Of a stretch of 64,000 bases of DNA, positions 24,369-43,325 are shown piece after piece. This DNA comes from Kosakonia sacchari. Lineage in GTDB: Bacteria > Pseudomonadota > Gammaproteobacteria > Enterobacterales > Enterobacteriaceae. Position numbers and translations under genes: made by a program. The notes beneath the pieces were generated by a model. The model saw only the letters and a list, made by a program, of their open reading frames with translations. It did not search any database and was not told the origin of the DNA. Positions within the stretch are counted from its first letter, which is position 1. Each line of letters begins with the position of its first letter. The DNA lies in NCBI GenBank assembly GCA_900109485.1, contig FOAY01000005.1, forward strand, positions 124,001-188,000. The letters run 5' to 3'.

Positions 24369-24953
24369 CTAATTACGTAAGCCGCTCGCCAGTAGCGTAA
24401 ACACCTTGATATAGTTGGGGAGCGCTTTTTGCGGATCATCGCTGGCCGCAATTGCCAGTGCGGCATTCATTGCCGCACCATTTAACATCTGCGCAGCGGC
24501 ATCGGCGTCCACCGGTTTGAGGATGCCGCGTTCGATCAGTTTCAGCACCGCCTGGCGCGTGGATTCCAGACAACTATTCTGGCTTGGCCACTGTGCCGGG
24601 TCGCCGAGAAAAGCCGGACCATCCAGCAAAACAATACGCTGCACTTCCGGGTCGAGAGCCATTTTGATGTAGGCAATCCCTTCGGCCAGTAACCTTTCCC
24701 ATTCATCGCTGGCAGCGGCCGCAACCGCTTTCGCGCGTTGTGCCATTTCCCCGTCCACCTGCGCAACAACCGCGGCAAGCAATCCCTTTTTATCACCAAA
24801 ATTGTGATAGAGCGCGCCGCGCGTCAGGCCAACGCTGGCCGTTAATTCATCCATTGATGCGGCGGCATAGCCTCTTTCTGCAAACGCCCTTCGCGCTGCA
24901 CCGATCAATTTAGCCCGGTTCTCTTCCATCGTTTCGCTGCGACGCTTAATCAT
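24369..24953 (-). CDS. TetR-family repressor
   Basis: The 194-residue regulator has a typical N-terminal TetR helix-turn-helix (AKLIGAARRAFAERGYAAAS then GLTRGALYHNFGDKKGL, about 15-60) and a helical ligand domain. Start 24953 has AAGGAG six bases upstream; the longer open frame to 25049 crosses the operator region and is rejected. It is divergent from the RidA-family gene, with two copies of a palindromic site in between, the classical arrangement for autorepression and control of the partner. Confidence 0.9.
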   Translation of the reverse strand: MIKRRSETMEENRAKLIGAARRAFAERGYAAASMDELTASVGLTRGALYHNFGDKKGLLAAVVAQVDGEMAQRAKAVAAAASDEWERLLAEGIAYIKMALDPEVQRIVLLDGPAFLGDPAQWPSQNSCLESTRQAVLKLIERGILKPVDADAAAQMLNGAAMNAALAIAASDDPQKALPNYIKVFTLLASGLRN

Positions 24954-24967
24954 GCGATCTCCTTTTG

Positions 24968-24984
24968 ACATACGCGGCGTATGT
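24968..24984. promoter_or_regulatory. TetR operator candidate 1
   Basis: ACATACGC-G-GCGTATGT is a perfect eight-base inverted repeat around one central base, sixteen bases in front of the TetR ribosome binding site start region. Confidence 0.75.
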
Positions 24985-24996
24985 GATATTAATTTA

Positions 24997-25013
24997 ACAT
25001 ACGCCGCGTATAT
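24997..25013. promoter_or_regulatory. TetR operator candidate 2
   Basis: ACATACGC-C-GCGTATAT repeats the first operator with one mismatch, 29 bases centre to centre (nearly three helical turns), so two repressor dimers could bind the same face. Confidence 0.72.
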
Positions 25014-25072
25014 TAAACGATTTGTCAGCACCCTGCTTCTTGTTTTCACCCTGCACTGAAAAAGGAAACCCT

Positions 25073-25468
25073 ATGATCCAGCGTGAACCCGTATTCCCCG
25101 CTAACCGCCATGCGCTTTATGAAGAACATGGTTATTCAGCCGCCATCCGTTCCGGAGATTTGCTGTTTGTTTCCGGCCAGGTCGGTAGCCGCGCCGACGG
25201 TACGCCGGAGCCGGATTTTGCCGCTCAGGTGCAACTGGCATTCGATAATTTGCGAGCGACGCTTGCTGCCGCAGGCTGTACGTTTGACGATCTGATTGAT
25301 GTCACGACCTTTCATACCGATCCGCAAAACCAGTTCCCGACAATTATGCAGATAAAACAGGCGCTTTTCCCGCAGCCACCTTATCCGAACTGGACGGCCG
25401 TTGGCGTTACCTGGCTTGCCGGATTTGATTTTGAAATTAAGGTCATTGCCCGCATTCCTGCCCGGTAG
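25073..25468 (+). CDS. RidA/YjgF-family protein
   Basis: The 131-residue protein has the RidA fold; LFVSGQVG near residue 30 and the C-terminal NWTAVGVTWLA region are family hallmarks. RidA proper hydrolyses reactive enamine/imine intermediates in the cytosol and has an active-site Arg near residue 105; here the corresponding stretch reads PYPNWTAVGV with no evident Arg, so this is more likely one of the Rid subfamilies without classical deaminase activity. AAAGGAA precedes the ATG. It is controlled by the divergent TetR. Confidence 0.82.
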   Translation: MIQREPVFPANRHALYEEHGYSAAIRSGDLLFVSGQVGSRADGTPEPDFAAQVQLAFDNLRATLAAAGCTFDDLIDVTTFHTDPQNQFPTIMQIKQALFPQPPYPNWTAVGVTWLAGFDFEIKVIARIPAR

Positions 25469-25614: not shown

Positions 25615-28209
25615 TTAAATCGTCACGACATCAATACGATCATTTCCCCCTGTTTGATACTCAGCCAACTGATGGAAATTTAAGTAGCGATAGGTATCTT
25701 CTCGCGTGTCATTGATCCTGTCCATGTGCCAGAGATACTGTTCAACGGTCGGCATTTTGCCCAGCATTGCTGCAATCGCACTGAGCTCAGCTGAGGCGAG
25801 GAAGACTTTTGCATCGGTACCAAGACGGTGCGGGAAGTTACGAGTTGATGTCGAGACCACGCAACTCCCTTCTTTGACCCGAGCCTGATTGCCCATGCAA
25901 AGCGAGCAGCCAGCCGGTTCAATTCGCGCGCCGGATCGGATGAGCTTATTAAAATACCCTTCGCTGGCAAGCTGCTGTGCATCCATTTTGGTTGGCGGAG
26001 CAATCCACAGCCGGGCTGGTATCTCTTTGGAGTCAGCCAGCAGTTTCCCGGCAGCCCGGAAGTGACCAATATTTGTCATACAGGAGCCAATGAAAACTTC
26101 CTCTACTGGCGTGCGGGCGACGTCGGACAGTAAACGGGCATCGTCAGGGTCATTTGGCGCACAAACAATCGGCTCGGTAATTTCCGTCAGATCAATTTCA
26201 ATGATTGCCGCGTACTCAGCATTTTCATCTGCACTCAATAAAGACGGGTTCGCCAGCCATGCTTCGATCCCGGCAATTCGTTTTTCAAGCGTTGGCGCGT
26301 ACTGATAACCCTGGTCAATCATCCAGCGCAGCAAGGTGGCATTGGAACGCAAATACTCCGCAACGTTCTCTTCTTCGAGACGTAGCACACAGGCAGCAGC
26401 AGAGCGCTCAGCGGAGGCATCAGCCAGCTCAAAGGCCTGCTCAGCTTTTAGCATTTGCAAACCTTCGATTTCCAGAATACGACCGGAGAAAATATTGCGT
26501 TTGTTTTTCTTCTCGGTCGTCAACAACCCTTGCTTAATGGCGTAGTAAGGAATCGCATGAACTAAATCGCGCAGAGTGATCCCTTTTTGCATTTCACCCG
26601 TAAAGCGGACCAGAACAGATTCAGGCATATCGAGAGGCATAATTCCAGTGGCTGCCGCAAAAGCGACCAGTCCTGAACCGCCTGGAAATGAGATGCCTAA
26701 TGGAAAGCGCGTATGCGAATCAGCACCTGTCCCCACAGTGTCCGGGATGAGCATGCGGTTAAGCCATGAATGGATAATTCCATCACCCGGCTTCAGTGCA
26801 ACGCCTTTTCTGCAGGTAATGAACTGAGGCAGCGTCTTATGCAAATTAACGTCAACAGGTTTGGGATACGCTGATGTGTGGCAAAACGACTGCATGACCA
26901 GATCGGCAGAAAACCCCAGGCATGCAAGATCCGTCAGTTCATCGCGCGTCATCCCGCCAGTAGTATCCTGCGACCCCACGGTGGTGATTTTAGGTTCACA
27001 ATATTGACCAGGGCGAATACCTTCAACCCCGCAAGCTCTACCGACCATTTTTTGCGCCAGTGTAAACCCTGCAGAAGAAGGTTCAGGTGCCTTTGGTTTC
27101 CTGAAAATGGATGTTGTTTGCAGCCCCAAAGACTCCCTGGCTCTTGCTGTTAAGCTACGGCCAATGATCAACGGAATGCGACCGCCTGCCTGTACTTCAT
27201 CCAGCAAAACTTCGGTTTTCAGGCGAAATGAGGCAATCAGCGTTTGATCGCGATGGTTGCGGATCTCGCCCTTGTACGGATAAAGATCGATCAGCATCCC
27301 CGTTGCTAAACCAGAGACATCCAGTTCAATGGGAAAGGCACCCGAATCTTCCAGAGTATTGAAAAAGATAGGCGCAATTTTCCCTCCGAAGACAAAACCC
27401 CCGCTGCGTTTGTTTGGCACGAAAGGGATATCTTTCCCGATATGCCACAGGATTGAGTTCGTCGCAGATTTGCGTGAAGAACCGGTCCCCACCACATCCC
27501 CGACGTAAGCGAGAGGATACTGCTGGTTTTTTAATTCTTGCATCTGAGATATCGGGCCACATTGTCCCGGTTGGTCAGGACTCACCCCTTCCCTTACAGC
27601 ACTCAGCATTGAGAGCGCATGCAGGGGAATATCCGGGCGTGACCACGCCTCAGGTGCCGGAGAAAGGTCATCCGTATTCGTTTCACCGGGGACTTTAAAT
27701 ACGGTCAGGGTTATTTTTTCATCAAGCCCGGCGCGTTCTGTAAACCACTCGGCATTTGCCCATGATTCAATAATCGCTTTGGCATGAGCATTTCCATTAC
27801 CGGCTTTCTGCTCGATATCGTTAAATTTTTCAAAAATAAGAATTGTGTGGCTTAGTTTAATGGCCGCTAAAGGCGCCAACTCGACGTCATCTAACGCATC
27901 AATAAGAGGTTGAATATTGTATCCACCCTGCATAGTGCCAAGAATATTTATAGCATCTTCGGGAGTAATGCCGTATTGATTTGTTTTTTCCTTAATGATT
28001 TTATCAAGGAATTCCGCTTTGACTTTCGCAGCCGCATCAACGCCGGGAGAAACCTGATTAATTAACAGATTAATTAAATACTCTCGTTCCTCACACTGTT
28101 CATTTTCGAGAAGAGTAATTAATTCACTGGTCTGCTGCGCGGTGAGCGGTTTTGCCGGTATGCCATTTCTTGCCCGTTCAGCGACGTGCATTTTATATGC
28201 TTCAAACAT
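25615..28209 (-). CDS. Aconitate hydratase B-type enzyme of the citrate-lyase operon
   Basis: This 864-residue protein is collinear with AcnB (865 residues in E. coli): the AcnB-specific N-terminal HEAT-like domain (about 1-160), then the swivel domain with GTGSSRKSATNS, then the catalytic domains. The [4Fe-4S] ligand cysteines are present in FIGSCMTN (near 710) and GCSLCMGN (near 770). AcnB interconverts citrate, cis-aconitate and isocitrate. The protein differs from housekeeping AcnB at many positions and is the last gene of the cit operon, so it is probably a dedicated paralogue that links cis-aconitate to citrate there. Confidence 0.9.
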   Translation of the reverse strand: MFEAYKMHVAERARNGIPAKPLTAQQTSELITLLENEQCEEREYLINLLINQVSPGVDAAAKVKAEFLDKIIKEKTNQYGITPEDAINILGTMQGGYNIQPLIDALDDVELAPLAAIKLSHTILIFEKFNDIEQKAGNGNAHAKAIIESWANAEWFTERAGLDEKITLTVFKVPGETNTDDLSPAPEAWSRPDIPLHALSMLSAVREGVSPDQPGQCGPISQMQELKNQQYPLAYVGDVVGTGSSRKSATNSILWHIGKDIPFVPNKRSGGFVFGGKIAPIFFNTLEDSGAFPIELDVSGLATGMLIDLYPYKGEIRNHRDQTLIASFRLKTEVLLDEVQAGGRIPLIIGRSLTARARESLGLQTTSIFRKPKAPEPSSAGFTLAQKMVGRACGVEGIRPGQYCEPKITTVGSQDTTGGMTRDELTDLACLGFSADLVMQSFCHTSAYPKPVDVNLHKTLPQFITCRKGVALKPGDGIIHSWLNRMLIPDTVGTGADSHTRFPLGISFPGGSGLVAFAAATGIMPLDMPESVLVRFTGEMQKGITLRDLVHAIPYYAIKQGLLTTEKKNKRNIFSGRILEIEGLQMLKAEQAFELADASAERSAAACVLRLEEENVAEYLRSNATLLRWMIDQGYQYAPTLEKRIAGIEAWLANPSLLSADENAEYAAIIEIDLTEITEPIVCAPNDPDDARLLSDVARTPVEEVFIGSCMTNIGHFRAAGKLLADSKEIPARLWIAPPTKMDAQQLASEGYFNKLIRSGARIEPAGCSLCMGNQARVKEGSCVVSTSTRNFPHRLGTDAKVFLASAELSAIAAMLGKMPTVEQYLWHMDRINDTREDTYRYLNFHQLAEYQTGGNDRIDVVTI

Positions 28210-28272
28210 AGGAGTTCGACCTTATAACAGGAAATTGAAAAATATGCCTGGGTGCCATCTATATTAAAAAGT

Positions 28273-28848
28273 TCATCTGTCTGTTTTTAATAGCATCTCT
28301 CCAAATTGTGATACTTTTTCAAGACCATATTCCCACTCACCAAATCCGGATTCAGAATTAATATGACCAGCATCGCCGACATCTATCAGTTCGCATCCCC
28401 AACTGTCAGACCAAAATACAGCGCGATTGAATGACATAAGCGGGTCATTGCGACTGGCGAAGACCATTCCGGGTATTGTTAGCTTAGATGCGGTGACAAC
28501 CTCTTCAAGTTCAAAATGCGAAGGTTCAGCAGGCGCCACCATAACAATCCCGGCAATATTTACAGTTCTGCTCTGGACCTGGTACCAGGATGCAAGCGCG
28601 CCAAAACTATGCCCAATCAAAATAACGGGCAAAGTACAGGTGGCTAATTCTCTGCGAATCGCTGCGCCCCAATTTTCAATATCCGGCTGCAACCAGTTTC
28701 GTTGGCTTATTCTTTTCCAGCGCGGTAAGCGACGCGCCCAACAGGTTTGCCAGTGGTAATCGTCGCTATCTCTTAATCCCGGAACAAGGATCGTGGTGAA
28801 AGAATCATCCAGCTTTAACAGACGCGGTATGGTCATGGTAAATTCCAT
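28273..28848 (-). CDS. Alpha/beta hydrolase, RBBP9/YdeN type
   Basis: The 191-residue protein is a small serine hydrolase of the RBBP9/YdeN family. The nucleophile elbow is LIGHSFGA (around 76-83), the acid is in SRNDPLM and the His in DAGHINSESG, so the triad is complete. The DUF-style stretch DDYHWQTCWARRLP near the start fits YdeN. It lies 22 bases after citG and 63 before acnB on the same strand, so it is part of the operon. Thioester or ester cleavage is possible; a role in removing acetyl groups from citrate lyase is speculation. Confidence 0.82.
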   Translation of the reverse strand: MEFTMTIPRLLKLDDSFTTILVPGLRDSDDYHWQTCWARRLPRWKRISQRNWLQPDIENWGAAIRRELATCTLPVILIGHSFGALASWYQVQSRTVNIAGIVMVAPAEPSHFELEEVVTASKLTIPGMVFASRNDPLMSFNRAVFWSDSWGCELIDVGDAGHINSESGFGEWEYGLEKVSQFGEMLLKTDR

Positions 28849-28870
28849 CAGTCCTTAGTTTTCCACCCTT

Positions 28871-29746
28871 TCAGGCTGGAAAATGCGCCAGCAGCCAGGT
28901 GACTGCCAGCAGATCCGCACTTCCTCCCGGACTTAAATTTCGGGCAATGAACGCAGTGTCCATATGTAAAAGTGCCTTCCTGAACCTGTTGCCGGTAAGG
29001 TGTTTAATACGCAGGATTCTGGCCGCATATCGCTGTGCATAGCGCAATCCTTTAAGCCCCCCACGCGTGAGGATATTGGTATCAGGATTGTGCGCAATTA
29101 ATGAAAGCAACACCCGCAGTAAAGACTCCTCTGGCGAATAACCAGAGTTGATTGCTTTTTCCCATACGGGTAATCCATAAATCCTTACCGTAGCAAACCC
29201 GCTTTCGACCTCCCCACGCGCTCCCGTAATGCCATAATCGCGAAACAGTTGTTCGCCTTTGGTTTTCGCATCGCCAGTGTGCTTCAACTCCCGACTCACC
29301 ATACCGGCGCAGATCTGGCTAACTTCCTGGCAAAGCGCTCTGCGATTGATAGCTTCGCCCTTACCTTCCAGGCGCCCGGCAGCAGCACAAAACAGGCCCA
29401 GCGAAAAGATTCCCCCTTTGTGGGTGTTGATCCCTCCCGTTGCGCTGAACATTGCCTGCTCACAGGCAAGCCCTGTCGGTCTGATGGAAAGAAGTGTCTT
29501 CCTGGGTTCTTGCTTAGCTGTTTGTACGCCTTTTGCCACAAACAACGCGAACCAGGGAGCTATTGCTGCAATACTGAGCATGAATAGCCTGAGATCCATG
29601 TCGGTATGCGACCCATTATTATGACGGTCAACCAGCCCTGGTTTGGGTGTCAGAATGACTTCGCGGTACATTCCCTCCGCAGCCAGCTCCGCAATGTTAA
29701 GTTCATGAATGAACGGTTCATTTCTGATGGCAGAAATAGTCATCAA
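28871..29746 (-). CDS. citG: Triphosphoribosyl-dephospho-CoA synthase
   Basis: CitG makes the precursor of the citrate lyase prosthetic group from ATP and dephospho-CoA. The 291-residue protein has the family motifs KPGLVDRHNNGSHTDMD (near 36-52) and NTHKGGIFSLG (near 106-116). It overlaps citX by 29 bases. Together CitG and CitX produce and attach the group to CitD. Confidence 0.93.
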   Translation of the reverse strand: MMTISAIRNEPFIHELNIAELAAEGMYREVILTPKPGLVDRHNNGSHTDMDLRLFMLSIAAIAPWFALFVAKGVQTAKQEPRKTLLSIRPTGLACEQAMFSATGGINTHKGGIFSLGLFCAAAGRLEGKGEAINRRALCQEVSQICAGMVSRELKHTGDAKTKGEQLFRDYGITGARGEVESGFATVRIYGLPVWEKAINSGYSPEESLLRVLLSLIAHNPDTNILTRGGLKGLRYAQRYAARILRIKHLTGNRFRKALLHMDTAFIARNLSPGGSADLLAVTWLLAHFPA

Positions 29747-30263
29747 TCATATCCCCCATAACAGCGTGTAAGGCGTGGAGCGAATGTCTCCGCATTCGTG
29801 AACAGACATGTGCCGGCTCATCACAGATGAAACAACGTCTTTTGTTTTCACCGACAGATTTACGGCTCAATAAGCCGGTATCCGGGCAAAACACATCGAT
29901 ATCCCACAACCTTCCCAGTGGATGGTTGTCCTCAAGGCGTATTGTTGCCTTTTTTATCTGTGATGCGGGTGCGTTGACAGACCAGAATGACTCTGGCCCG
30001 GTAACAAACTGGCGAGCGTCGTGCCTGATGATTTCCCAGCCATTGGCGGCGATCAGAACAGTGAGCGCTTCATTCGCAGCCGCCATGACAGCTCTTGATT
30101 CAGGCGTATCTTTTACCTCACCCGGCCAGACCAGGGTTGTCGAAATCAGGGGATGTTCCCAACGGATCAACCAGAGTTGCTGCTGGTATGAACGGGCTTC
30201 TCTGGCTGCCAGTAACTGATCCAAAGAAATGGGTGAGCACGATGCCTCTGCCATAGCGTCCAT
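29718..30263 (-). CDS. citX: Apo-citrate lyase phosphoribosyl-dephospho-CoA transferase
   Basis: CitX transfers the triphosphoribosyl-dephospho-CoA group to the Ser of CitD. The 181-residue protein carries the conserved GRLWDIDVF motif near residues 117-125 and CFICDEPAHVCSR near the C-terminus. The start codon overlaps the citF stop (TAATG), as expected for coupled translation. Confidence 0.92.
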   Translation of the reverse strand: MDAMAEASCSPISLDQLLAAREARSYQQQLWLIRWEHPLISTTLVWPGEVKDTPESRAVMAAANEALTVLIAANGWEIIRHDARQFVTGPESFWSVNAPASQIKKATIRLEDNHPLGRLWDIDVFCPDTGLLSRKSVGENKRRCFICDEPAHVCSRMRRHSLHALHAVMGDMIDDYFCHQK

Positions 30264-31783
30264 TACTCTTTAACCTGCCTGACGACGTCAATCACACTTC
30301 CATCACGGTAACGAACAACACCCACAATTTTGGACGTAAATTCAATGGCTTTTGGTTGACCGGAGATCTCCAGCGCACGCTGATACAAAGCCTCAATATT
30401 CACTACGGGTAACCCTTTATCCACCAGTCGCTGATGAATTTCAGGACGTGAAGGGTTTACGGCGATACCGTGATCGGTGACTAATACATCAATGCTTTCA
30501 CCAGGTGTAACGCATGTTGTAACGTGCTTCACAACGGTCGGAATTCGGCTGCGGATCAACGGTGCAACAACCACTGTCAGGTTCGCTGCAGCAGCAACAT
30601 CGCAGTGACCGCCGGAAGCGCCGCGCATCACACCATCCGATCCCGTCAGCACGTTAACGTTGAAATTTGTATCAATTTCAAGGGCGCTTAGAATCACAAT
30701 ATCGACCCTATCGCAGCATGCCGCTTTCGAGGCCGGGTTAGCGTAAACGTTGGTAGAGATTTCAACATGGTTTGGGTTTCTGGCTAAAGAGGCTGCGGCA
30801 GCACTGTCAAAACTCTGGGTATCCAGCAGTTTTGTGATCAGCCCTTTCTCATGAAGATCCACAATACTGCCGGTGATCCCCCCTAATGCGAAACCCGCAG
30901 TGATGTTTTTATTTTTCATGCGCGATTCTAAAAAGCGCGTACATGCCGTTGAAGCTGCGCCTGAACCTGTCTGGATTGAGAATCCCTGTTCGAAGTAACC
31001 CGAATGTTCAACCACATCAGCCGCTGAACGCGCGATCATCAGCTCACGAGGATTACTGGTTACACGGGCAGCGCCGACGCTGATTTTTGCAGGGTCGCCA
31101 ACACTGTCAATTTTGACAATGTAATCGACCTGATCCTGAACAATGCTCGCAGGCATATAGGGGAAAGGTTCAATGGATTCAGTCAGCAGTACAACGCATT
31201 TCGCGTACGCAGCATCCACCATCGCATAACCCAGAGAGCCACAGCGTGACTTACCACCGCTGCCACTTGCATTACCATATTCATCGGAACAGGAGACAGC
31301 CAGGAAGGCGACATCAATATTAATTTCACCTTTCTGGATGAGATTAACCCGGCCGCCATGCGAATGAATTTGTACCGGTTCCGCCATCAGACCATGCGAA
31401 ATAGCATCAGCTAACTCTCCACGCATACCGGAGGTATAGATTTTCGTAATCACACCATTACGAATATGATTAATTAAGGGCGCATTACAGGTCATTAATG
31501 AACTGGACGCCAGTGTAATCCCTTTCAAACCTAATGATGCGAGTTTATCTACGACAAGATTGATGACTTTATCACCTTCACGGAAGGCATGATGAAATGA
31601 AATAGTCATACCATCATGGAGTTCGCAACGGCCTAAAATTTCATCCAGATTTTCACAAAGCTTACGCTGATATTTTTGTTTAGCATCTGCAAGATATGGC
31701 GTTGCTGCATTGGCATGAGTAAACGCAACATATTCTTTTGAATTCCCGGCCTGTTCTTGTAAAGCTGCAATTAATTTGCTCAT
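30263..31783 (-). CDS. citF: Citrate lyase alpha subunit (citrate:acetyl-ACP transferase)
   Basis: CitF exchanges the acetyl group on CitD for citrate, giving citryl-ACP and acetate. The 506-residue protein matches the family throughout (for example GSGGKSRCGSLGYAMVDAAYA and GVMRGASGGHCDVA). AGGATAATAAAG lies before the ATG. It follows citE by 17 bases. Confidence 0.95.
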   Translation of the reverse strand: MSKLIAALQEQAGNSKEYVAFTHANAATPYLADAKQKYQRKLCENLDEILGRCELHDGMTISFHHAFREGDKVINLVVDKLASLGLKGITLASSSLMTCNAPLINHIRNGVITKIYTSGMRGELADAISHGLMAEPVQIHSHGGRVNLIQKGEINIDVAFLAVSCSDEYGNASGSGGKSRCGSLGYAMVDAAYAKCVVLLTESIEPFPYMPASIVQDQVDYIVKIDSVGDPAKISVGAARVTSNPRELMIARSAADVVEHSGYFEQGFSIQTGSGAASTACTRFLESRMKNKNITAGFALGGITGSIVDLHEKGLITKLLDTQSFDSAAAASLARNPNHVEISTNVYANPASKAACCDRVDIVILSALEIDTNFNVNVLTGSDGVMRGASGGHCDVAAAANLTVVVAPLIRSRIPTVVKHVTTCVTPGESIDVLVTDHGIAVNPSRPEIHQRLVDKGLPVVNIEALYQRALEISGQPKAIEFTSKIVGVVRYRDGSVIDVVRQVKE

Positions 31784-31800
31784 CTTTATTATCCTGTCAA

Positions 31801-32676
31801 TTAGTGGCGAATGCCTGATGCTTTTTTTCTCTCAAGCACAACCCTGGCGTGATTGATTATTGGCGCGTCAATCATTTTGCCATTCAGAGAAATCACACCC
31901 AGTCCACTACGTTCACCTTCTTCGGCCGCAGTAATTACCCGCTCCGCGTAATCAACCTCTTCCTGGGTTGGTGCATAGGCATTGTGAAGCAACTCAATTT
32001 GCCGGGGGTTAATTAAAGATTTACCGTTGAAGCCCATGCGGCGAATTAAATCGACTTCTTTTAAGAAGCCTTCTTCATCGTTAACATCGCCATACACAAC
32101 GTCAAAAGCATCGATACCCGCAGCGCGCGCCGCATGTAAAACCGCACAACGCGCATAGAACAGTTCAGTACCATCTCCGCGCTCTGTTTGCATATCCATT
32201 ACATAGTCAAATGCTGCTAATGCAATGCCCATCAGTCGATCTGAGGAGCGGGCAATTGCAACCGCATTGATGACGCCAACAGCAGACTCAATAGCCGCCA
32301 TCAGCTGTGTGGAACCCACTTTACGGCCACAGCTTTCCTCAATGCGGACAATTTCACGTTCAAGCTGGTGAATATCTTCTGGCGTATCTGTTTTAGGGAG
32401 TCGAATAACATCAACCCCGGCACGCACAGCCGCCTCAAGATCTTTCAATCCGAATGGGGTATTCAAAGGGTTAATACGTACAACCGTTTCAATACCTTTA
32501 TACATAGGGTGCTGGAGCGCATTGAAGACCAAAATACGTGCGCTGTCCTTCTCCCTCAAGGAGACCGCATCTTCAAGATCGAACATGATCGAATCAGGTT
32601 TATAAATAAAGGCAGTAGACAACATGGCAGCACTTGAGCCCGGTAAGAAAAGCATGCTACGACGTAATTTTTTCAT
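31801..32676 (-). CDS. citE: Citrate lyase beta subunit (citryl-ACP lyase)
   Basis: CitE splits citryl-ACP to oxaloacetate and acetyl-ACP, using Mg2+. The 291-residue protein shows [13 protein letters not shown] (near 32-44) and [10 protein letters not shown] (near 68-77), with the acidic metal ligands of the HpcH/HpaI-CitE fold. Its ATG overlaps the citD stop (ATGA). Confidence 0.95.
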
Positions 32677-32966
32677 TGTAGTTTCTCCCAGTTAATTTCA
32701 TCGCTGCATGTTCCTCGCATAATGGCAACTTGCATGCGGGAGCGAATAACACAATCAAGCGCACCTTTGTCATCCACAATAATTTGCCCATGCGTGACAT
32801 TGAATGCTGTTAACGTTTCGTTGACCACTTGAGTAATTTGCTCGCCAAATTGCTTCATGACTTCGCTGTTAATAACAATATCCAGTCCGACGTCCGAAGG
32901 GCTAACTTTAACCATTAGATCGCTCGATTCCAGCGTACCTGCCAGAGCTGCCTGTACAATTTTCAT
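32673..32966 (-). CDS. citD: Citrate lyase gamma subunit (acyl carrier protein)
   Basis: The 97-residue CitD is the carrier that holds the phosphoribosyl-dephospho-CoA group. The modified Ser is Ser14 in the motif AGTLESSD. It is one base away from citC and overlaps citE. Confidence 0.95.
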
Positions 32967-32967
32967 T

Positions 32968-34065
32968 TTAAAGTCCTACGCTAATACTCATGAGATTCCC
33001 TGTCAGAGGGGGTTCTGACAAGTCAAGGTGATTTGCCCTCAGCCAGTTATGTAAATAAGGCATAGTGCTTTCTGGCACTATATTCCTTGCAACTGACAGT
33101 TTGTTTTTATTCAAGAGAGAACGAACAGCTGACGCTGATATGGGATAATTATTTTCATCAGTTTTTCGATCTATTTCATGAACCGTAATAGCATTTGCGG
33201 GAATGACGAATTCCTCTTCGAGCCAGTGGTGCATTGCCCGGTTGTACTGAGCTGTCACTTTGCAATATGGTTCAGTGCCAACGAAGCGATGTGTAATCCC
33301 CAGCGATGGCGCAATGTAACGCCGAAAAATAATCAAATCGATTGCGGAATACACATCATTAACCACCTGTTTTTCTTTTAAGAAATAACCAGGAAACGTG
33401 CCGCGAGAAATAATGTATCTGGAACCAGGGTGTTCCGTTACATTGGAGAGATGTTTCACACCATCACGTACCATCGCAATACGGTCATTAAAGGAGAACT
33501 GAGACAAATTCTCTTCGACAACAAAAACATGCAGCCAATTACAAGCACGGGAAGCTTGCTCAATGAGAAATTGATGGCCTAACGTGAACGGATTCGCATT
33601 CATAACGATAGCGCCAATTTTGGCCGCCGGGATGAAATAATCGGCACGCAGTTTCTTGCAGTAACGATGGATTCCAACCGGGGTGTTTTCCATCAACGTC
33701 GCTTTGTTCTCAAGGGTGGCTAAAGGATAGAAGCCGCATCCACGGAAAGATTTGACATTATCAGGACAGGTTAAAAGGAACAGATGATGATCGCCATTTT
33801 GGTTTGCCAGATATTCAGCTTCACGAATCACCTGCAACCCCAGGGATGTTCCGCGCCATTCAATATGAACGGCAATACACTTCAAGGTATTCCCCGCGAG
33901 GCCAGCACAGGCAATTAATTGTTTGTCTGCACGAGCAATAACGAACTGCCCGACATCATCATCTATTCCTAATCCATTACTGTGCAGAAACTGGATAATC
34001 TCCTCTTTGATAACACCGTTGCTCGTTTCAACAGTATCGAATTCTGGCGTTTTTTCGGCATACAT
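32968..34065 (-). CDS. citC: [Citrate (pro-3S)-lyase] ligase
   Basis: CitC activates citrate lyase by acetylating the thiol of its prosthetic group with ATP and acetate. The 365-residue protein has an N-terminal GNAT-like domain and a C-terminal nucleotidyltransferase domain with the motif NANPFTLGHQFL (near 158). Start 34065 (MYAEKTPEF) is chosen because AGGAA lies eight bases upstream; the frame stays open to 34098. The residues ISASAVR near 320 fit the SxxxR element of this fold. Confidence 0.93.
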   Translation of the reverse strand: MYAEKTPEFDTVETSNGVIKEEIIQFLHSNGLGIDDDVGQFVIARADKQLIACAGLAGNTLKCIAVHIEWRGTSLGLQVIREAEYLANQNGDHHLFLLTCPDNVKSFRGCGFYPLATLENKATLMENTPVGIHRYCKKLRADYFIPAAKIGAIVMNANPFTLGHQFLIEQASRACNWLHVFVVEENLSQFSFNDRIAMVRDGVKHLSNVTEHPGSRYIISRGTFPGYFLKEKQVVNDVYSAIDLIIFRRYIAPSLGITHRFVGTEPYCKVTAQYNRAMHHWLEEEFVIPANAITVHEIDRKTDENNYPISASAVRSLLNKNKLSVARNIVPESTMPYLHNWLRANHLDLSEPPLTGNLMSISVGL

Positions 34066-34123
34066 CTTAATTGTTCCTGACCTGAGAGTAATCGACACTG
34101 AGTTGTGTATTTATTTGCGTAAA

Positions 34124-34987
34124 TTAAACGGCTAATAAATTTGATTGCGCCGTTGATTCAACAATCGTATTGGTCAGTCGTCCCAATTTTTCGATTGTCA
34201 CTTCAACACAATCACCTTCGTGCATGAACAACGGTGGATTACGTTTTTTCCCGACGCCGCCCGGCGAGCCAGTAATGATGACATCGCCAGGGCTAAGCGT
34301 AGTAAAGGTGCTGATATATGAAATCAGATCTGCAACTTTATGAATCATACTGGCAGTTGAATCATTCTGAACCAGCATGCCATTTAAATAGGTCTGAATG
34401 GATAAAGCGTGCGGGTCCGGGATTTCATCTACAGTCGTCATATAGGGGCCAAACGCGCCGGTTTGACGCCAGTTCTTACCCGCTGTAAACCATGCGTGCT
34501 GCCAGTCGCGAACAGAACCGTCCATGTAACAGCTATAGCCTGCAACATGGCTCAGCGCGTCACCGCGAATAATATTTTCGCCTGCTTTTCCGATGATGAC
34601 GGCAAGTTCGCCTTCGTAATCAAACTCCTCAGTAATATTGGGCTTGATTACCGGTCTTGCATGCCCGGTTTGAGAATCCGCGAAGCGAATAAATAACGTT
34701 GGCGCATTGTTAGTTTCCGCGAACTCTTTTCTTTTTTCTGCGTAATTCATTCCCACGCAAAAAATCTTTCCCGGCTCCTCAATAACCGGTAAAAAACTAA
34801 TATCGTTATCCGTAATATCCGGTGGATAATCCACATACTGCTTTGCAACAGCGAGAGCATCCCATTGCAGCAGATCTTTCAATGTGGGATATTGCTGACC
34901 AATTTTTTGACCAAGATCGATAATACCGGCGTCAGTATAAATACCGTAACTTTTACGACCGTGATGGATATAACTTGCAAGTTTCAT
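34124..34987 (-). CDS. Fumarylacetoacetate hydrolase (FAH) family enzyme
   Basis: The 287-residue protein has the FAH catalytic domain. Divalent metal ligands are visible: the two Glu of DYEGELAVIIG and the Asp of SCYMDGSVRDWQ, followed by the FDTCGP-equivalent TGAFGPYM and the glycine-rich GDVIITGSPGGVG. Members of this family act as acylpyruvases, oxaloacetate decarboxylases or oxaloacetate tautomerases. In an operon whose lyase produces oxaloacetate, one of the latter two is the natural guess. AGGTG precedes the ATG. The precise reaction cannot be fixed from sequence. Confidence 0.85.
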   Translation of the reverse strand: MKLASYIHHGRKSYGIYTDAGIIDLGQKIGQQYPTLKDLLQWDALAVAKQYVDYPPDITDNDISFLPVIEEPGKIFCVGMNYAEKRKEFAETNNAPTLFIRFADSQTGHARPVIKPNITEEFDYEGELAVIIGKAGENIIRGDALSHVAGYSCYMDGSVRDWQHAWFTAGKNWRQTGAFGPYMTTVDEIPDPHALSIQTYLNGMLVQNDSTASMIHKVADLISYISTFTTLSPGDVIITGSPGGVGKKRNPPLFMHEGDCVEVTIEKLGRLTNTIVESTAQSNLLAV

Positions 34988-35059
34988 AATAACACCTAAT
35001 GACTATTTAACTTTACCCCCTCACGCCAATTTTGGCCGTGAGGGATGTATTTATTACGG

Positions 35060-36304
35060 TTATTTCGCGGTTTCTGCTGGAACAAGATTCGCTTTAGTAC
35101 CCGAGGCAAGATGTGTTGCCACAATCATGCCCAGCACCAGCAACGCAATAATAAATGCGGTCATGCCAGCCCAGCCGGTCGAGTGAAAGACGAAGCCATT
35201 GAAGAAGCCAATCACTGAGCCGCCCATGTAGTAGAAGAATAAATAGAGTGCGACGGCCTGCCCGCGTGCATGTGTAGCGTTTTTACTTACCCAGTTCAGA
35301 CCGATGGAATGGCAACCGAAGAAGCACGCGGTGAAGATGACAGCGCCAATGATGAATATAATTACATTCGAGGTTAATGTCAGTAACATGCCCAACGACA
35401 TGATGGCGAATAACACGCGAAGAACATTCATGCTGCCATATTTAGCGGATAAACGACCGGCTTGTGGCGCGGTGAAAAAGCTCAATGCAAAGCTAAATGA
35501 GAGTAGCCCGGCGTTCGCAGGAGAGATATGGAACGGTTCACCCTTCAGGAAAAATGCCAGGTAGTTATAAAGAGAAGTGAAGGTACCAAAAATAATAAAG
35601 CTAATGACAAATGCGAGAGCGAGTTTTTTATTTTTAAAATGTGAGGCCGCGCCCTTCACTACCCGGAAAACATTCAGGTTTTCCGTAGGCGTAAATTTTT
35701 TAGAGGCTGGCAGAATGAAGAATACCAGCGCTGCAACAACAATCAGGCTGGCTGAAAAACCATAGAAAATCGTGTTGATTGAAATATGGTCGATTAACTG
35801 GCTGGCAACGATACGGCCAGACATTCCGCCCATCGAGTTCCCGAAGACAAAGTAGCCCGTTACCACACCCGCAACGACCGGCGCCACTTCTTCGCTAATA
35901 TAAGCCGTTGCCGCCGCGGCAATGCCGCTCAATGCCAGCCCAATCACTGCACGTAGCGCTACCAACATGGCCCAGGACTGTACCAACGGGCAAAGAGCCG
36001 TCAGAAGCCCGCCAAGCAGTAAAGAGACGATAATCAAACGCTTACGGCCATAGTGATCGGAAAGCGTACCGGTGAATAATAAACCAATCGCAAGCAAGGC
36101 AGTTTCAGCAGAAAGAATAATACTTACCTGGTGGACAGGAACGTTATATTCTACGGCAAGAACAGGTAACAGAGGCTGGATAAAAAATAAAGAAGCTAAC
36201 TCAGCCAATCCTGAAAGTGCTAAAGCAAAAATCACGCGGATGTATTGACTTGCTTTTACATCTCCGGTTCCACCTGAATTATTTTTAACATTAGTTATAG
36301 CCAT
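35060..36304 (-). CDS. MFS transporter, YnfM-like
   Basis: This is a 12-span carrier of 414 residues with the MFS loop motif GTLSDHYGRKRL after span 2 and FVFGNSMGGMSGR in the region of span 5, as in E. coli YnfM. GAGGATATT precedes the ATG. It is the only transporter of the cit operon and replaces the CitT antiporter usual for E. coli cit loci. It therefore most likely imports the operon's substrate or exports an end product. Confidence 0.87.
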   Translation of the reverse strand: MAITNVKNNSGGTGDVKASQYIRVIFALALSGLAELASLFFIQPLLPVLAVEYNVPVHQVSIILSAETALLAIGLLFTGTLSDHYGRKRLIIVSLLLGGLLTALCPLVQSWAMLVALRAVIGLALSGIAAAATAYISEEVAPVVAGVVTGYFVFGNSMGGMSGRIVASQLIDHISINTIFYGFSASLIVVAALVFFILPASKKFTPTENLNVFRVVKGAASHFKNKKLALAFVISFIIFGTFTSLYNYLAFFLKGEPFHISPANAGLLSFSFALSFFTAPQAGRLSAKYGSMNVLRVLFAIMSLGMLLTLTSNVIIFIIGAVIFTACFFGCHSIGLNWVSKNATHARGQAVALYLFFYYMGGSVIGFFNGFVFHSTGWAGMTAFIIALLVLGMIVATHLASGTKANLVPAETAK

Positions 36305-36398
36305 AATATCCTCAACTTTATATTTCTGGTACAGAGTTCTTTAGCCTTTGCGGGCTAAAGGTATTAATACGTTCAGATGTTCAAAGGCCAGCTAATGT

Positions 36399-37487
36399 TT
36401 AGATAACTTCCGCAAAGGCGATTTCCGGAACACAAACATTACCCTCGAATAATTTACGAGTAGTCCTGATTACAGCAGCACGGGTATTTTCTATTTTATT
36501 GCCGTACTTTAATAAAGAAACGGTAATCTTACCGCTTGGATGCTCAATGTTAACAATATTGGTAAATGCATCTTTGGGTTGGTCGCTAATGATTCTCTGC
36601 GCAACGGAACCTTCAATTATCGTTGCAGTAGAAATACCAATAGAGCCTGTAATAGCAAGTGATTTATGGCAATTATGCGGCATGAAATAGCGAACCTTAA
36701 TCGTACCGCCTGCCGTGGGTTTACTGAGAAGGACAGGTTTGGGAATAACTTTGTTGGTTACATCACCAAAGCCCATCGCCTCGCCGGCCTTGAGACGGAT
36801 TTTTTCAAGACGTTGCATAAACGCCAGATCCGAATCCAGCTCAGCCGGTGATTCACTGCCGGTTTTATCCATCTGATGTGCATCGATTAATATCATCGGC
36901 ATTGCCATATCAATGCATGTGACTTCAACACCATAAAACACATCCGTTGTGTTACCGGTCGGCAGCAACTTACCGGTTTTGCAGCCTGCGGAATTCATGA
37001 ACGTCAAACCGACAGGAGCAGCAGTACCCGGCACGCCATCAATCTGCGTATCTCCCTCGTAACTCACCCGGTAATCAGGTGTCTGCACTTCGGCATCAAC
37101 GAATGTTCCCGTGTTGAGATTGCGGATACGTACTGTTGTTACCGGATTTTTAGGCGCAACCAGGCCCTTTTCAATGGCAAAGGGGCCAACGGCACATAAC
37201 ATATTTCCACAGTTGGGCGTTGTATCCACTCGCCGCTCTTTCACCATGACCTGCGCAAAAAGATAGTCAATGTCCGCATCGGGACTATCCGAAGGGCTCA
37301 CAATCGCCACTTTACTGGTTTGTGGGCTTCCGCCACCGATACCATCAATTTCCAGTTCATGACCTGCCCCCATCAGAGACAACAGAACCGCGTCTCGTTC
37401 CTGAACGTCAACGGGTAAGTCGCTCGCCAGAATAACCGGTCCCTTAGACGTGCCACCACGCATCAATACGCAAGGTATGTTGAACAT
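36399..37487 (-). CDS. PrpF-family aconitate/oxalomesaconate isomerase-like protein
   Basis: The 362-residue protein belongs to the PrpF/GalD/YbhH family, a two-domain diaminopimelate-epimerase-like fold that shifts double bonds in aconitate-type acids. It begins MFNIPCVLMRGGTSKGP, with the family's conserved MRGGTSKG loop, and has TTPNCGNMLCAVG with a catalytic Cys candidate near residue 100 and the second-domain motif FMPHNCHKSLAITGSIG. Start 37487 is favoured by GGAAGAG upstream. It is the first gene of the operon. Candidate reactions are trans- to cis-aconitate isomerisation or oxalomesaconate tautomerisation; the neighbouring AcnB favours an aconitate. Confidence 0.85.
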   Translation of the reverse strand: MFNIPCVLMRGGTSKGPVILASDLPVDVQERDAVLLSLMGAGHELEIDGIGGGSPQTSKVAIVSPSDSPDADIDYLFAQVMVKERRVDTTPNCGNMLCAVGPFAIEKGLVAPKNPVTTVRIRNLNTGTFVDAEVQTPDYRVSYEGDTQIDGVPGTAAPVGLTFMNSAGCKTGKLLPTGNTTDVFYGVEVTCIDMAMPMILIDAHQMDKTGSESPAELDSDLAFMQRLEKIRLKAGEAMGFGDVTNKVIPKPVLLSKPTAGGTIKVRYFMPHNCHKSLAITGSIGISTATIIEGSVAQRIISDQPKDAFTNIVNIEHPSGKITVSLLKYGNKIENTRAAVIRTTRKLFEGNVCVPEIAFAEVI

Positions 37488-37561
37488 AGGTTTCTCTTCC
37501 CACATGTTGAATGATGCGGCAAGCGTCCCATAAGCGGATAAATAACTCTAATGTCAAAAAA

Positions 37562-37599
37562 CGAAGGATTGATGCGTTTTACACATTAATCAGCCTTCG
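37562..37599. promoter_or_regulatory. Interrupted palindrome between the cit operon and its LysR gene
   Basis: CGAAGG at 37562-37567 and CCTTCG at 37594-37599 bracket a partly symmetric AT-rich core (ATTGATG ... CATTAATC) in the divergent intergenic region. It is a good candidate LysR operator controlling both directions. Confidence 0.5.
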
Positions 37600-37641
37600 G
37601 CTAAGATGGCTAAATGACAGGGCAACCAGAAGGTTTGAAAA

Positions 37642-38568
37642 ATGCAGCATGAATTACAGGGCATTCAAGCTTTTGTTAAAATTGCAGAAATTGGATGCTT
37701 CACAAGGGCATCACAGTTTTTACACATCTCGCAGCCAGCATTAACAAGACGAATAAAAAAGCTTGAGGAAAGTTTGGGCACAACGTTATTTGAGCGTTCA
37801 ACCCGGCGAGTAAAACTTACCGCAGTAGGCAGAGACTTTCTGCCTAAAGCAAAGAATCTGTTAGATTTTTATGAAAGCTCGATCCTCAGTATCAAAGAAA
37901 TGGCGACGCATCAGACAGGCGTGATTACGTTATCCTGTTTACCCACCGCAGCCTTCTATTTCTTGCCCTCCGTTATTCGTGATTACAACGAACACTACCC
38001 GAATATTCGCATCCGCATACTTGAGCATAGTGCCAACGACTGCCTCGAAGCTGTGCTTAACGGCGATGCAGATTTTGGTATAAACATGATAAACATCACA
38101 CACCCGTATATTGAGTTTACCCCGCTGGTCAATGAGCCTTTCGTTCTCGCCTGTAAACGAGACCACGATCTTGCAAAAAAATCGCTTGTGATGTGGGAGG
38201 ATCTTGCCGGACTCAGGCTGATTGGCGTGCGTAAATCGAGTGGCAACCGACTGCTGATTGATCAGGCGCTGGAAGGATTTGACTGGCGACCAAACTGGTT
38301 TTACGAGGTAAGGCATCTGTCCACCTCGCTTGGGATGGTAGAGGCCGGTTTAGGTGTGGCCGTTGTTCCCAGCCTGGCAATGCCGACAGATGAGCATCAT
38401 GTTCTGGTGAGCCGACCGCTTATTGAGCCGGTTATCCGCAGAACCCTTGGATTAGTCGTCAGAAGGGGCAATTCTTTGAGCCCTGCGGCCGAAAAATTCC
38501 GTGAAATGTTGATGAAGCTGTGGTCTCAGGATAACACCAGCCCCTGGATTGGAAAATTTAACAATTAA
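37642..38568 (+). CDS. LysR-family regulator of the citrate-lyase operon
   Basis: The 308-residue LysR protein has the winged helix at about 1-62 (CFTRASQFLHISQPALTRRIKKLE) and an effector-binding domain after it. AAGG lies eight bases before the ATG. It is transcribed away from the 11-gene operon with a 150-base gap. Classical cit loci use the CitA/CitB two-component system; here no such genes are seen, so a LysR appears to have taken over control. The inducer is unknown but is probably the operon's substrate. Confidence 0.9.
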   Translation: MQHELQGIQAFVKIAEIGCFTRASQFLHISQPALTRRIKKLEESLGTTLFERSTRRVKLTAVGRDFLPKAKNLLDFYESSILSIKEMATHQTGVITLSCLPTAAFYFLPSVIRDYNEHYPNIRIRILEHSANDCLEAVLNGDADFGINMINITHPYIEFTPLVNEPFVLACKRDHDLAKKSLVMWEDLAGLRLIGVRKSSGNRLLIDQALEGFDWRPNWFYEVRHLSTSLGMVEAGLGVAVVPSLAMPTDEHHVLVSRPLIEPVIRRTLGLVVRRGNSLSPAAEKFREMLMKLWSQDNTSPWIGKFNN

Positions 38569-41555: not shown

Positions 41556-43325
41556 ATGACAGTTCGATTGAATAAAGTATCAATAACTAACTTCAGGTCT
41601 TGCAAATCCACCGAAGCTTTTCTAAGGCCATACACAGCACTGGTTGGTTATAATAATGCAGGTAAATCAAACATTATATTGGCTATAAAATGGCTCTTAG
41701 ATGGATCCCTACTAAGCGATGCTGATATGTACGACCCACAAAAGCCAGTGCGAGTAGAGGGAATCATTGAAGGCATTACTGATGACACGCTGACATTACT
41801 TAGCGAGGAAAATCAGCAAAAAATTGCACCATTTATCATAGACAAAACTTTGAGGTTTGCAAGAAAACAGGACACAGAAGTTGTTGATGGTGATAAGTTA
41901 AAAATCAAAAAAATACTTGAGGTTTTTGATGGGACCATATGGAAAAAAAACCCTGGTGGAATTGATGGCGCTATCTCAAATCTTTTCCCTGAGCCAATTC
42001 ATATTCCTGCGATGTCTGATGCTGTAGAAGATGCAACCAAAAATAAAGCTGGTACAACAATCGCAAAAATCCTAACTGCAATTGTTAGCGAAATAAAAAA
42101 GGAATATGAAGTAAAATTCTCTGAAAATATTTCGGAAATCGGTAAGTATCTTTCTCATGATGGTTCCACCAGGTTAGATGGTTTGAATAAAATCGACAGT
42201 GGCGTTAGTCAGAAAGTTAATCAGTTTTTCCCCGATGTAAGTGTGAAACTACACTTTCCTACCCCCACTCTTGATGAAATATTCAAATCAGGCACCTTGA
42301 AAGTATTTGAACAACGAGCTGGGTCCTCAATAATGCAAGACATCAGCCGATTCGGTCATGGTACGCAGCGTTCAATACAGATGGCTTTGATTCAATATTT
42401 AGCTGATATTAAGAAAAGAAGCGATGATACAAAAAAATCAAACACTCTGATTTTCATTGATGAACCAGAGTTATACTTACATCCATCTGCCATAAACTCT
42501 GTGAGAGAATCCCTAGTAGCTTTAAGCGATCTTGGATTCCAGGTAATCATCTCAACTCACTCGGCCAGCATGCTCTCAGCAAAACATGCCTGCAACGCTA
42601 TACAGGTCTTTAAAAGCTCCGAGGGTACTATAGCTCGAAAAACCATTTCGGAAAAAATACAAGAACTATATGAGGCATCATCACCACAACTTCATTCTGC
42701 ATTTGCCTTATCTAATTCATCATTTTTCTTATTTTCAGAAGAAGTTTTATTAGTCGAGGGCAAAACAGAAACGAATGTTTTATGCGCACTTTATAAAAAA
42801 ATTAGAAACTATGAACTTAACCCTACCAAGACAAGTATTGTAGCTGTAGATGGCAAAGGCAGCCTTTTAAAAATGGCCAATGTTATCAATTCCATAGGGA
42901 TAAGAACGCGAATCCTTGCCGATTGCGATTTTCTATCAATACTACTGACAACCTCTCACCAAGAAGTATTAAGTAGTGAATGCGATGAATTACTTTCATC
43001 TTTAACCAACTTGTCGGATCCACAAAGTTTGCAACTTGCCAACCCCATTAGTTCTATAGACTCATTAAAAAGCAGCTCAAGCAAAGACTTTATAAAAATC
43101 TGCAATCATCATGAAGTAAAACCCTCCATCAAAAAAATTCATGATAAATTAAAGAGTGATGGAATCTATATTTGGAAGTCAGGAGATATTGAGCAAGTAT
43201 ACGGGTTTGGAAAAAAACAAAGCGAATGGGATAATTTATTAGATTGTTTAAGTGATGATACAAAAGAGGTCCGTGTCATTATTAAGAACTATGATGAAAT
43301 GGAAGATTTCATTTTATGGATTTGA
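41556..43325 (+). CDS. OLD-family ATP-dependent endonuclease (AAA ATPase plus TOPRIM)
   Basis: The 589-residue protein joins an ABC/SMC-type ATPase to a TOPRIM nuclease. Walker A is GYNNAGKS (31-38), the signature-like FGHGTQRS is at 267-274, Walker B TLIFIDEPELYLHP starts near 298, and the H-loop is STHSASML (334-341). The TOPRIM part has LLVEGKTE (Glu402), AVDGKG (431-436) and the acidic LADCDF (455-460). OLD proteins act in phage exclusion and in several defence systems. No UvrD-like helicase (Gabija) or reverse transcriptase (retron) lies next to it, so it looks like a solitary class 1-type OLD. The gene is much more AT-rich than the backbone, indicating transfer. AAGGA precedes the ATG. 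Confidence 0.9.
   Translation: MTVRLNKVSITNFRSCKSTEAFLRPYTALVGYNNAGKSNIILAIKWLLDGSLLSDADMYDPQKPVRVEGIIEGITDDTLTLLSEENQQKIAPFIIDKTLRFARKQDTEVVDGDKLKIKKILEVFDGTIWKKNPGGIDGAISNLFPEPIHIPAMSDAVEDATKNKAGTTIAKILTAIVSEIKKEYEVKFSENISEIGKYLSHDGSTRLDGLNKIDSGVSQKVNQFFPDVSVKLHFPTPTLDEIFKSGTLKVFEQRAGSSIMQDISRFGHGTQRSIQMALIQYLADIKKRSDDTKKSNTLIFIDEPELYLHPSAINSVRESLVALSDLGFQVIISTHSASMLSAKHACNAIQVFKSSEGTIARKTISEKIQELYEASSPQLHSAFALSNSSFFLFSEEVLLVEGKTETNVLCALYKKIRNYELNPTKTSIVAVDGKGSLLKMANVINSIGIRTRILADCDFLSILLTTSHQEVLSSECDELLSSLTNLSDPQSLQLANPISSIDSLKSSSSKDFIKICNHHEVKPSIKKIHDKLKSDGIYIWKSGDIEQVYGFGKKQSEWDNLLDCLSDDTKEVRVIIKNYDEMEDFILWI

Follow-up and report, generated by a model that had tools for sequence, protein, structure and literature searches.

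We report an eleven-gene operon of Kosakonia sacchari that unites a complete citrate lyase gene set with a PrpF-family isomerase, a carrier of the major facilitator superfamily (MFS), an FAH-family protein, a serine hydrolase and a second AcnB aconitase. The operon lies in a 64,000-nucleotide stretch of contig FOAY01000005.1 (positions 124,001 to 188,000; "the window"), with a lysR gene transcribed divergently from it. We propose, with a probability of about 0.65, that this is a LysR-controlled operon for the catabolism, and probably the fermentation, of trans-aconitate and of any cis-aconitate that enters the cell. In the proposed pathway, the MFS protein would import aconitate, the PrpF-family enzyme would interconvert trans- and cis-aconitate, the dedicated AcnB would hydrate cis-aconitate to citrate, and citrate lyase (CitDEF, activated by CitC, CitX and CitG) would split citrate to acetate and oxaloacetate. 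The FAH protein may then handle oxaloacetate by enol-keto tautomerisation or by decarboxylation, and the LysR protein would act at a palindrome between lysR and prpF. An earlier note on this DNA had proposed the same route from trans-aconitate through cis-aconitate and citrate to acetate and oxaloacetate. This order of steps holds up as the one best supported by genomic context, and it is reported for Acidaminococcus fermentans. Gene content, order, conservation, protein families and the catalytic residues of PrpF and AcnB are read from the sequence; we infer the substrate, the direction of transport, the flux, anaerobic use and the roles of the FAH protein and the serine hydrolase.

Gene content of the operon

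The eleven genes are all on the minus strand, in the order prpF, MFS carrier, FAH, citC, citD, citE, citF, citX, citG, serine hydrolase and acnB, with -29 to +94 bases between adjoining genes. The lysR gene stands opposite on the plus strand, across a spacer of 136 bases from prpF. All twelve genes are intact open reading frames (ORFs) at the coordinates below, each matching its own family by profile score, and citC, citD, citE, citF, citX and citG form a full set in which every member, like AcnB, exceeds the NCBIfam curated cut-off. These results bear out the earlier description of an eleven-gene operon with a divergent LysR gene.

37642..38568, plus strand: LysR-type regulator, divergent from prpF (LysR_substrate, 173 bits, plus HTH_1)
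37568..37590, minus strand: palindrome ATTAAT-N11-AT[TC]AAT, presumed LysR operator (alignment of 22 loci and the window)
36399..37505, minus strand: PrpF-family isomerase, predicted aconitate cis-trans isomerase (PF04303, 405 bits; start probably 37487)
35060..36304, minus strand: MFS transporter, predicted aconitate carrier (MFS_1, 164 bits)
34124..34987, minus strand: FAH-family protein, predicted oxaloacetate tautomerase or decarboxylase (PF01557, FAA_hydrolase, 195 bits)
32968..34098, minus strand: citC, citrate lyase ligase (TIGR00124, 395 bits)
32673..32966, minus strand: citD, citrate lyase acyl carrier protein (TIGR01608, 104 bits)
31801..32676, minus strand: citE, citrate lyase beta subunit (TIGR01588, 470 bits)
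30263..31783, minus strand: citF, citrate lyase alpha subunit (TIGR01584, 735 bits)
29718..30263, minus strand: citX, apo-citrate lyase transferase (TIGR03124, 184 bits)
28871..29746, minus strand: citG, triphosphoribosyl-dephospho-CoA synthase (TIGR03125, 322 bits)
28273..28848, minus strand: PF06821 serine hydrolase, which we take to be of the RBBP9/YdeN type (167 bits)
25615..28209, minus strand: second AcnB aconitase (TIGR00117, 1416 bits)

For prpF, a start at 37487 is likelier than the listed 37505, because the ATG at 37487 is preceded by GGAAGAG and aligned homologues begin near xxIPCVLMRGG. A promoter scan found 16 promoter-like sites against a shuffle mean of 20.6, and a terminator scan found 16 terminator-like sites against 14.5 in shuffles, with no clear excess in either. 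Given that neither scan rose above the shuffles, it is from spacing and conserved gene order only that we infer a single transcript. Against Kosakonia arachidis (L004), pairwise ratios of nonsynonymous to synonymous substitution (dN/dS) for the twelve genes range from 0.02 to 0.33, and against Phytobacter (L006) from 0.015 to 0.117; in the comparison with Mixta (L016), 10 of the 12 genes have saturated synonymous sites. The operon is real, recurrent and under purifying selection.

The nearest solved relatives of the window PrpF are YbhH (6otv, 469 bits), LigU (303-307 bits), 3-methylitaconate isomerase (231 bits) and Shewanella oneidensis PrpF (153 bits). In S. oneidensis PrpF, K73 lies in a TSK motif and C107 in an NCGN motif, and changing either residue harmed the protein (PMC5690661); the window PrpF has both motifs at the aligned positions, with Lys65 and Cys99 (residues 59 and 93 when counted from the start at 37487) as the counterparts. 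Two other roles for the window PrpF were considered and set aside. A PrpF of the 2-methylcitrate cycle does not fit, as the window protein scores 153 bits to 2pvz, where a Pseudomonas PrpF encoded next to an aconitase-like gene reaches 705, and neither prpB nor prpC was recognised beside the window prpF. Nor does the GalD role in gallate degradation, as no dioxygenase, PIG-L hydratase or RraA aldolase neighbours were recognised in the window.

The 5.54 Mb host genome also carries a housekeeping acnB, adjoining the pyruvate dehydrogenase/lpd region (gene reading by eye); contig 24 holds another cit locus, in which a sensor kinase and a 2HCT (CitS-type) carrier accompany FAH and citCDEFXG. The acnB and cit genes of the operon are therefore second copies; the operon AcnB is 69% identical to the housekeeping AcnB, and the operon citF is 75% identical to the other citF. 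The operon AcnB is full-length, aligning with E. coli AcnB (1l5j) over residues 1-853, and it conserves the motifs of cysteines C710, C768 and C771, which presumably bind the Fe-S cluster.

The FAH protein is predicted, from its fold family (PF01557), to be an oxaloacetate tautomerase or decarboxylase. Its five best-scoring solved relatives have a His, which we take to be catalytic, in the NYxxH motif, at a position where the window protein carries Lys; tautomerase activity may persist without this His. The same Lys occurs in 22 of 23 FAH hits from the loci (window protein excluded, some hits being repeats of one genome), including those of the standard cit locus, of G061 (described below) and of L156, where FAH is not beside cit genes; the sole His is in a Pseudomonas FAH (L068). 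With this change, the FAH of the standard cit locus (L088, 5926-6795) points to a cit-linked FAH subfamily, of which we met no description, although no search aimed at it was made. FAHD proteins tested are reported to be oxaloacetate tautomerases that repair enol-oxaloacetate (PMC10825186), and the presence of OadA, OadB and FAH together in G061 would fit a tautomerase better than a second decarboxylase. The earlier view of FAH as a distinctive partner of this operon did not survive, and we rejected FAH as a mark of it, because the genome's own standard cit locus has an FAH too, between the 2HCT carrier and citC.

Recurrence of the operon and related loci

Using the PrpF protein as a query against genome contigs, we found 190 relatives and analysed the best 80 loci. 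The earlier note had suggested a check for conserved co-occurrence, and all twelve genes are indeed kept in 12 of these 80 loci (L004-L007, L010-L012, L014-L016, L018 and L020), with acnB extending past the end of the analysed stretch in some. These loci span Kosakonia, Phytobacter, Enterobacter, Enterobacillus, Raoultella, Citrobacter, Mixta, Pantoea and Enterobacteriaceae bacterium LSJC7, and since gene order recurs across genera it is not due to chance. Contig ends interrupt three further loci (L013, L017 and L021). No serine hydrolase was found in the loci of Prodigiosinella (L019), Celerinatantimonas (L070, also without citX) or genome G075 (L152). Three loci have prpF and lysR without cit genes (L008 and L009 from Providencia, and L022), and no cit genes were found in the 60 Pseudomonas loci among the best 80.

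We also surveyed co-occurrence in 198 genomes of the family, some of which are the same records as in the prpF-locus survey and many of which are related. A PrpF match at 1e-60 is present in 35 of the 198, at 36 places, and at 12 of these places citF is no more than 15 kb from prpF (read from the survey tables). PrpF of at least 65% identity occurs in 11 genomes, and two AcnB places occur in 11 (at most four candidates per genome were scored; in 27 of these genomes every candidate was scored, with an agreeing result). In 10 of the 11 two-acnB genomes, the second AcnB is on the same contig as a prpF of the at-least-65% type, 6.9-8.2 kb away, the exception being G061. Conversely, 10 of the 11 genomes with such a prpF have the second acnB, the exception being G024 (the genome of L022), where a Na_sulph_symp (DASS-type) carrier comes after prpF. 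The association has a Fisher p of 6e-15, a descriptive value as the related genomes are uncorrected for kinship. Lastly, MFS copies of at least 69% identity occur in nine of the 198 genomes, beside prpF in all nine, and the next best copy is 52% identical.

At the DNA level, no near-match to the whole operon was found in E. coli. A distant-mode search with the MFS gene gave no E. coli match, and one with prpF matched ybhH in 5290 of 5426 E. coli genomes, none covering 80%. The one DNA near-match to the operon is a Providencia plasmid carrying prpF and lysR only. The Providencia pair stands alone on a Col3M-replicon plasmid (L084, 919-3089) and on a chromosome near transposase-like ORFs (L008, 8931-11101). 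As the Providencia PrpF is nested among Kosakonia-type PrpF proteins in a tree that we used only for placing close rows (its distant types have very long branches, with warnings of long branches meeting, and its root is weakly supported), the pair was apparently transferred without the rest. Plant association, which the earlier note had made part of its reading, is not needed, since such close prpF-lysR pairs occur in Providencia.

In 76 of the best 80 prpF loci, lysR is the divergent neighbour of the matched prpF; in L054, L055, L067 and L077 it stands opposite a second prpF and comes before the matched one. The palindrome between lysR and prpF is present in its strict form, ATTAAT-N11-AT[TC]AAT, in 17 of 20 non-Pseudomonas loci and one of 60 Pseudomonas loci, and in a looser form in 18 and 15 of them, respectively. 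The strict form has a single match in the whole window on both strands. It is also present between E. coli ybhD and ybhH (L190) and in the ybh-type loci L153, L154 and L189, and it is absent from L155, L152, L146, L147, L187 and L188 and from the gallate-type loci L151 and L157. In E. coli, ybhH is reported to rise on deletion of ybhD (PMC9068703).

The prpF genes of this subfamily lie near tricarboxylate-type carriers in Pseudomonas and in E. coli (ybhDHIJ). Counting any protein of a locus that has at least 35% identity to a protein of L023 or L054, the 60 Pseudomonas loci with this PrpF subfamily have a CitMHS carrier in 59, a porin in 57 (OprD by eye), an SDF carrier in 45 and TctC in 5, and in ybh-type loci the PrpF of the subfamily is near Na_sulph_symp carriers.

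Several loci combine citrate lyase with these genes in other ways. Genome G002 (L146) has acnB, citF, citE, citC, a Na_sulph_symp carrier, citX, prpF and a divergent lysR; citG was not seen there, and citD would fall below the ORF size cut-off. Providencia rettgeri (L147) has citC, citE, citF, citX, citG, a Na_sulph_symp-like carrier and prpF. G090 (L187) and G128 (L188) have citC to citG, a DASS-like carrier and prpF, with citX not seen in L188. G090, G128 and the genome of L147 (G213) gave no second acnB place. By eye, a two-component pair lies next to citC in L187 and L188, giving a citrate-type locus that ends in an aconitate-isomerase relative. The G061 locus (L145, 2053-17634) has FAH, OadB, OadA, acnB, citX, citF, citE, citC, a MatC-type carrier and an amidohydrolase without prpF; our guess is that it may serve isocitrate or a lactone of isocitrate.

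In a CitF tree, prpF-linked loci fall on both sides of the deepest split (support 100/100), and the operon label needs four changes, at least three of them forced by well-supported branches; the branches are long and the changes may include losses. With four label changes, a single common origin of all prpF-cit loci is not supported. An AcnB tree has only nine cit-linked rows, as the analysed stretch ends within acnB in most loci; these rows do not form a single clade, and the copy of G061 groups with the housekeeping AcnB. Taken together, the two trees suggest to us that aconitase and isomerase joined citrate lyase more than once. A broader idea, to which we give a little under even odds, is that citrate lyase loci repeatedly gained upstream steps, an aconitase and an aconitate isomerase being recruited in separate events, and so became operons that ferment plant tricarboxylates different from citrate; the operon would then be the first gene set described for trans-aconitate fermentation, and E. 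coli YbhH would by implication be an aconitate isomerase.

Elsewhere in the window, a TetR-type-like ORF and a RidA-family-like ORF lie at 24369-25468, the latter convergent with the operon end (by eye). A full-length match to the Old family (PADLOC, 690 bits) at 41556-43325 is a candidate ATPase-Toprim defence gene, and none was seen at the corresponding place in the relatives G201 (L161) and G205 (L159).

Alternative functions of the operon

A Pantoea anthophila isolate is reported to assimilate trans-aconitate (PMC13188880), and the P. anthophila genome that carries the operon (L020) is of another strain. Several observations weigh against a trans-aconitate operon. The isomerase AI-79 of Providencia rettgeri reportedly had 0.7%/0.4% activity in vitro, and the strain grew on trans-aconitate (PMC11495376); a P. 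rettgeri genome has two PrpF matches, and AI-79, possibly a close relative, is not assignable to either. A Pantoea strain and a Serratia strain are described as using trans-aconitate without a homologue of the Bacillus velezensis isomerase TarA (PMC11495376), and most clones of Klebsiella pneumoniae are described as using it, clone Ozaenae being one that does not (PMC2656620). The trait therefore need not depend on the operon, and as K. pneumoniae is absent from the best 80 of the 190 prpF loci, other genes or a lower-ranked relative would serve there. A related regulator, E. coli ybhD, is reported to have an L-malate phenotype (PMC9068703). The strict form of the presumed operator is absent from several prpF-cit loci, and database records name window-type PrpF 4-oxalomesaconate tautomerase. 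In addition, the operon is patchy within its genus: PF04303 is present in 5 of 15 Kosakonia genomes, four of which (G000, G198, G201 and G205) have the window-type PrpF at 96-100% identity, and the fifth (G199) has a PrpF 41% identical to that of the window.

A distinctly less probable explanation than trans-aconitate catabolism is that the substrate fermented is another tricarboxylate, for example isocitrate or cis-aconitate, that joins the pathway at the level of aconitase. PrpF would then only clear trans-aconitate, which inhibits aconitase, as it forms spontaneously, a kind of metabolite repair in which FAH may similarly clear enol-oxaloacetate. The absence of prpF from the G061 locus suggests that acnB and citrate lyase may serve a substrate other than the trans isomer, and there is a precedent for repair in the FAHD tautomerases that act on enol-oxaloacetate (PMC10825186). 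What tells against a repair enzyme is the setting of prpF: it comes first in the operon, adjoining the regulator gene, and in Pseudomonas it accompanies LysR and carrier genes in 60 loci that yielded no acnB2-like gene and no cit gene, a position and company that fit a catabolic entry step.

Less probable again is an ordinary citrate fermentation locus in which the MFS protein imports citrate and AcnB and PrpF are passengers. The citCDEFXG set is complete, as such a locus would require, and G090 and G128 show a two-component-like pair (by eye), cit genes, a carrier and prpF together. However, the genome already has a cit locus with a 2HCT carrier. An aconitase would also be superfluous ahead of citrate lyase if citrate were the substrate, yet AcnB copies of more than one lineage are found in cit loci. 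Mere passengers are also at odds with dN/dS values that stay below 1 for all twelve genes in two comparisons.

We consider it very improbable that the isomerase acts on 4-oxalomesaconate or a similar product of aromatic ring cleavage, as the database name and the rank of LigU as second nearest solved family might suggest: no gallate genes were recognised among the window ORFs, gallate-type loci (L151, with LigAB, PIG-L and RraA families, and L157, alike by eye) carry a different PrpF, 50-52% identical to that of the window, and window-type PrpF sits with tricarboxylate-type carriers. Just as improbable is an operon that makes and exports trans-aconitate as a defence compound, since citrate lyase would be expected to drain the precursor and the carriers beside this PrpF subfamily elsewhere belong, we presume, to uptake families; in its favour, trans-aconitate assimilators among Pantoea anthophila, Enterobacter, Citrobacter and Providencia reportedly also secrete some in citrate medium (PMC13188880).

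Comparison with known systems

We found no description of this gene set in the open-access literature, most subscription journals being outside the search. The chemistry is already known; the genetic form of the proposed pathway is a variant that we found nowhere described. A citrate fermentation cit locus consists of CitS or CitT, CitAB and citCDEFXG. The operon shares the order of citCDEFXG with this standard, and has FAH before citC as in the genome's own contig 24 locus, but it has an MFS carrier for CitS/CitT and LysR for CitAB, plus prpF and acnB.

Fermentation of trans-aconitate by A. fermentans is said to go back to Haertel and Buckel (1996). The route described for this organism runs from trans-aconitate through citrate and oxaloacetate to pyruvate (PMC3035267) and is the same as we propose. 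In A. fermentans, however, the genes are given at scattered locus numbers and no isomerase is named in the account (PMC3035267), whereas those of the window form one gene run in the Enterobacterales. In B. velezensis, a LysR regulator (TarR), a PrpF-superfamily isomerase (TarA) and an MFS carrier (TarB) are reported to serve trans-aconitate (PMC11495376). The window resembles tarRAB in having these three families in one locus, a likeness drawn by family and not by Tar sequences. Unlike the window operon, with its built-in acnB, citrate lyase set and FAH, tarRAB sends cis-aconitate into the tricarboxylic acid (TCA) cycle, and the term "citrate lyase" is not in the main text of that report (PMC11495376).

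If our proposal is correct, it would supply genes for this fermentation, so far reported, in the literature that we found, from one anaerobe. It would also show that citrate fermentation loci have been widened by the addition of upstream steps, explain the second AcnB kept by some Enterobacterales and question the database name 4-oxalomesaconate tautomerase. Maize and grasses are reported to be sources of trans-aconitate or to accumulate it (PMC11495376, PMC13188880), and the operon may therefore be relevant to growth on plants.

The proposal would, in addition, offer a testable function for the E. coli ybh genes. In an E. coli genome ybhD, ybhH, ybhI and ybhJ form one cluster, and like the window this run has a LysR regulator, a PrpF relative, an anion permease, an aconitase-family protein and a matching palindrome; at L153, a locus of the ybh type, the carrier belongs to the Na_sulph_symp family and Aconitase domains are found in the last protein. 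Unlike the window, the ybhDHIJ run has no citrate lyase, and proteins of the YbhJ type have Aconitase and Aconitase_C domains and not those of AcnB.

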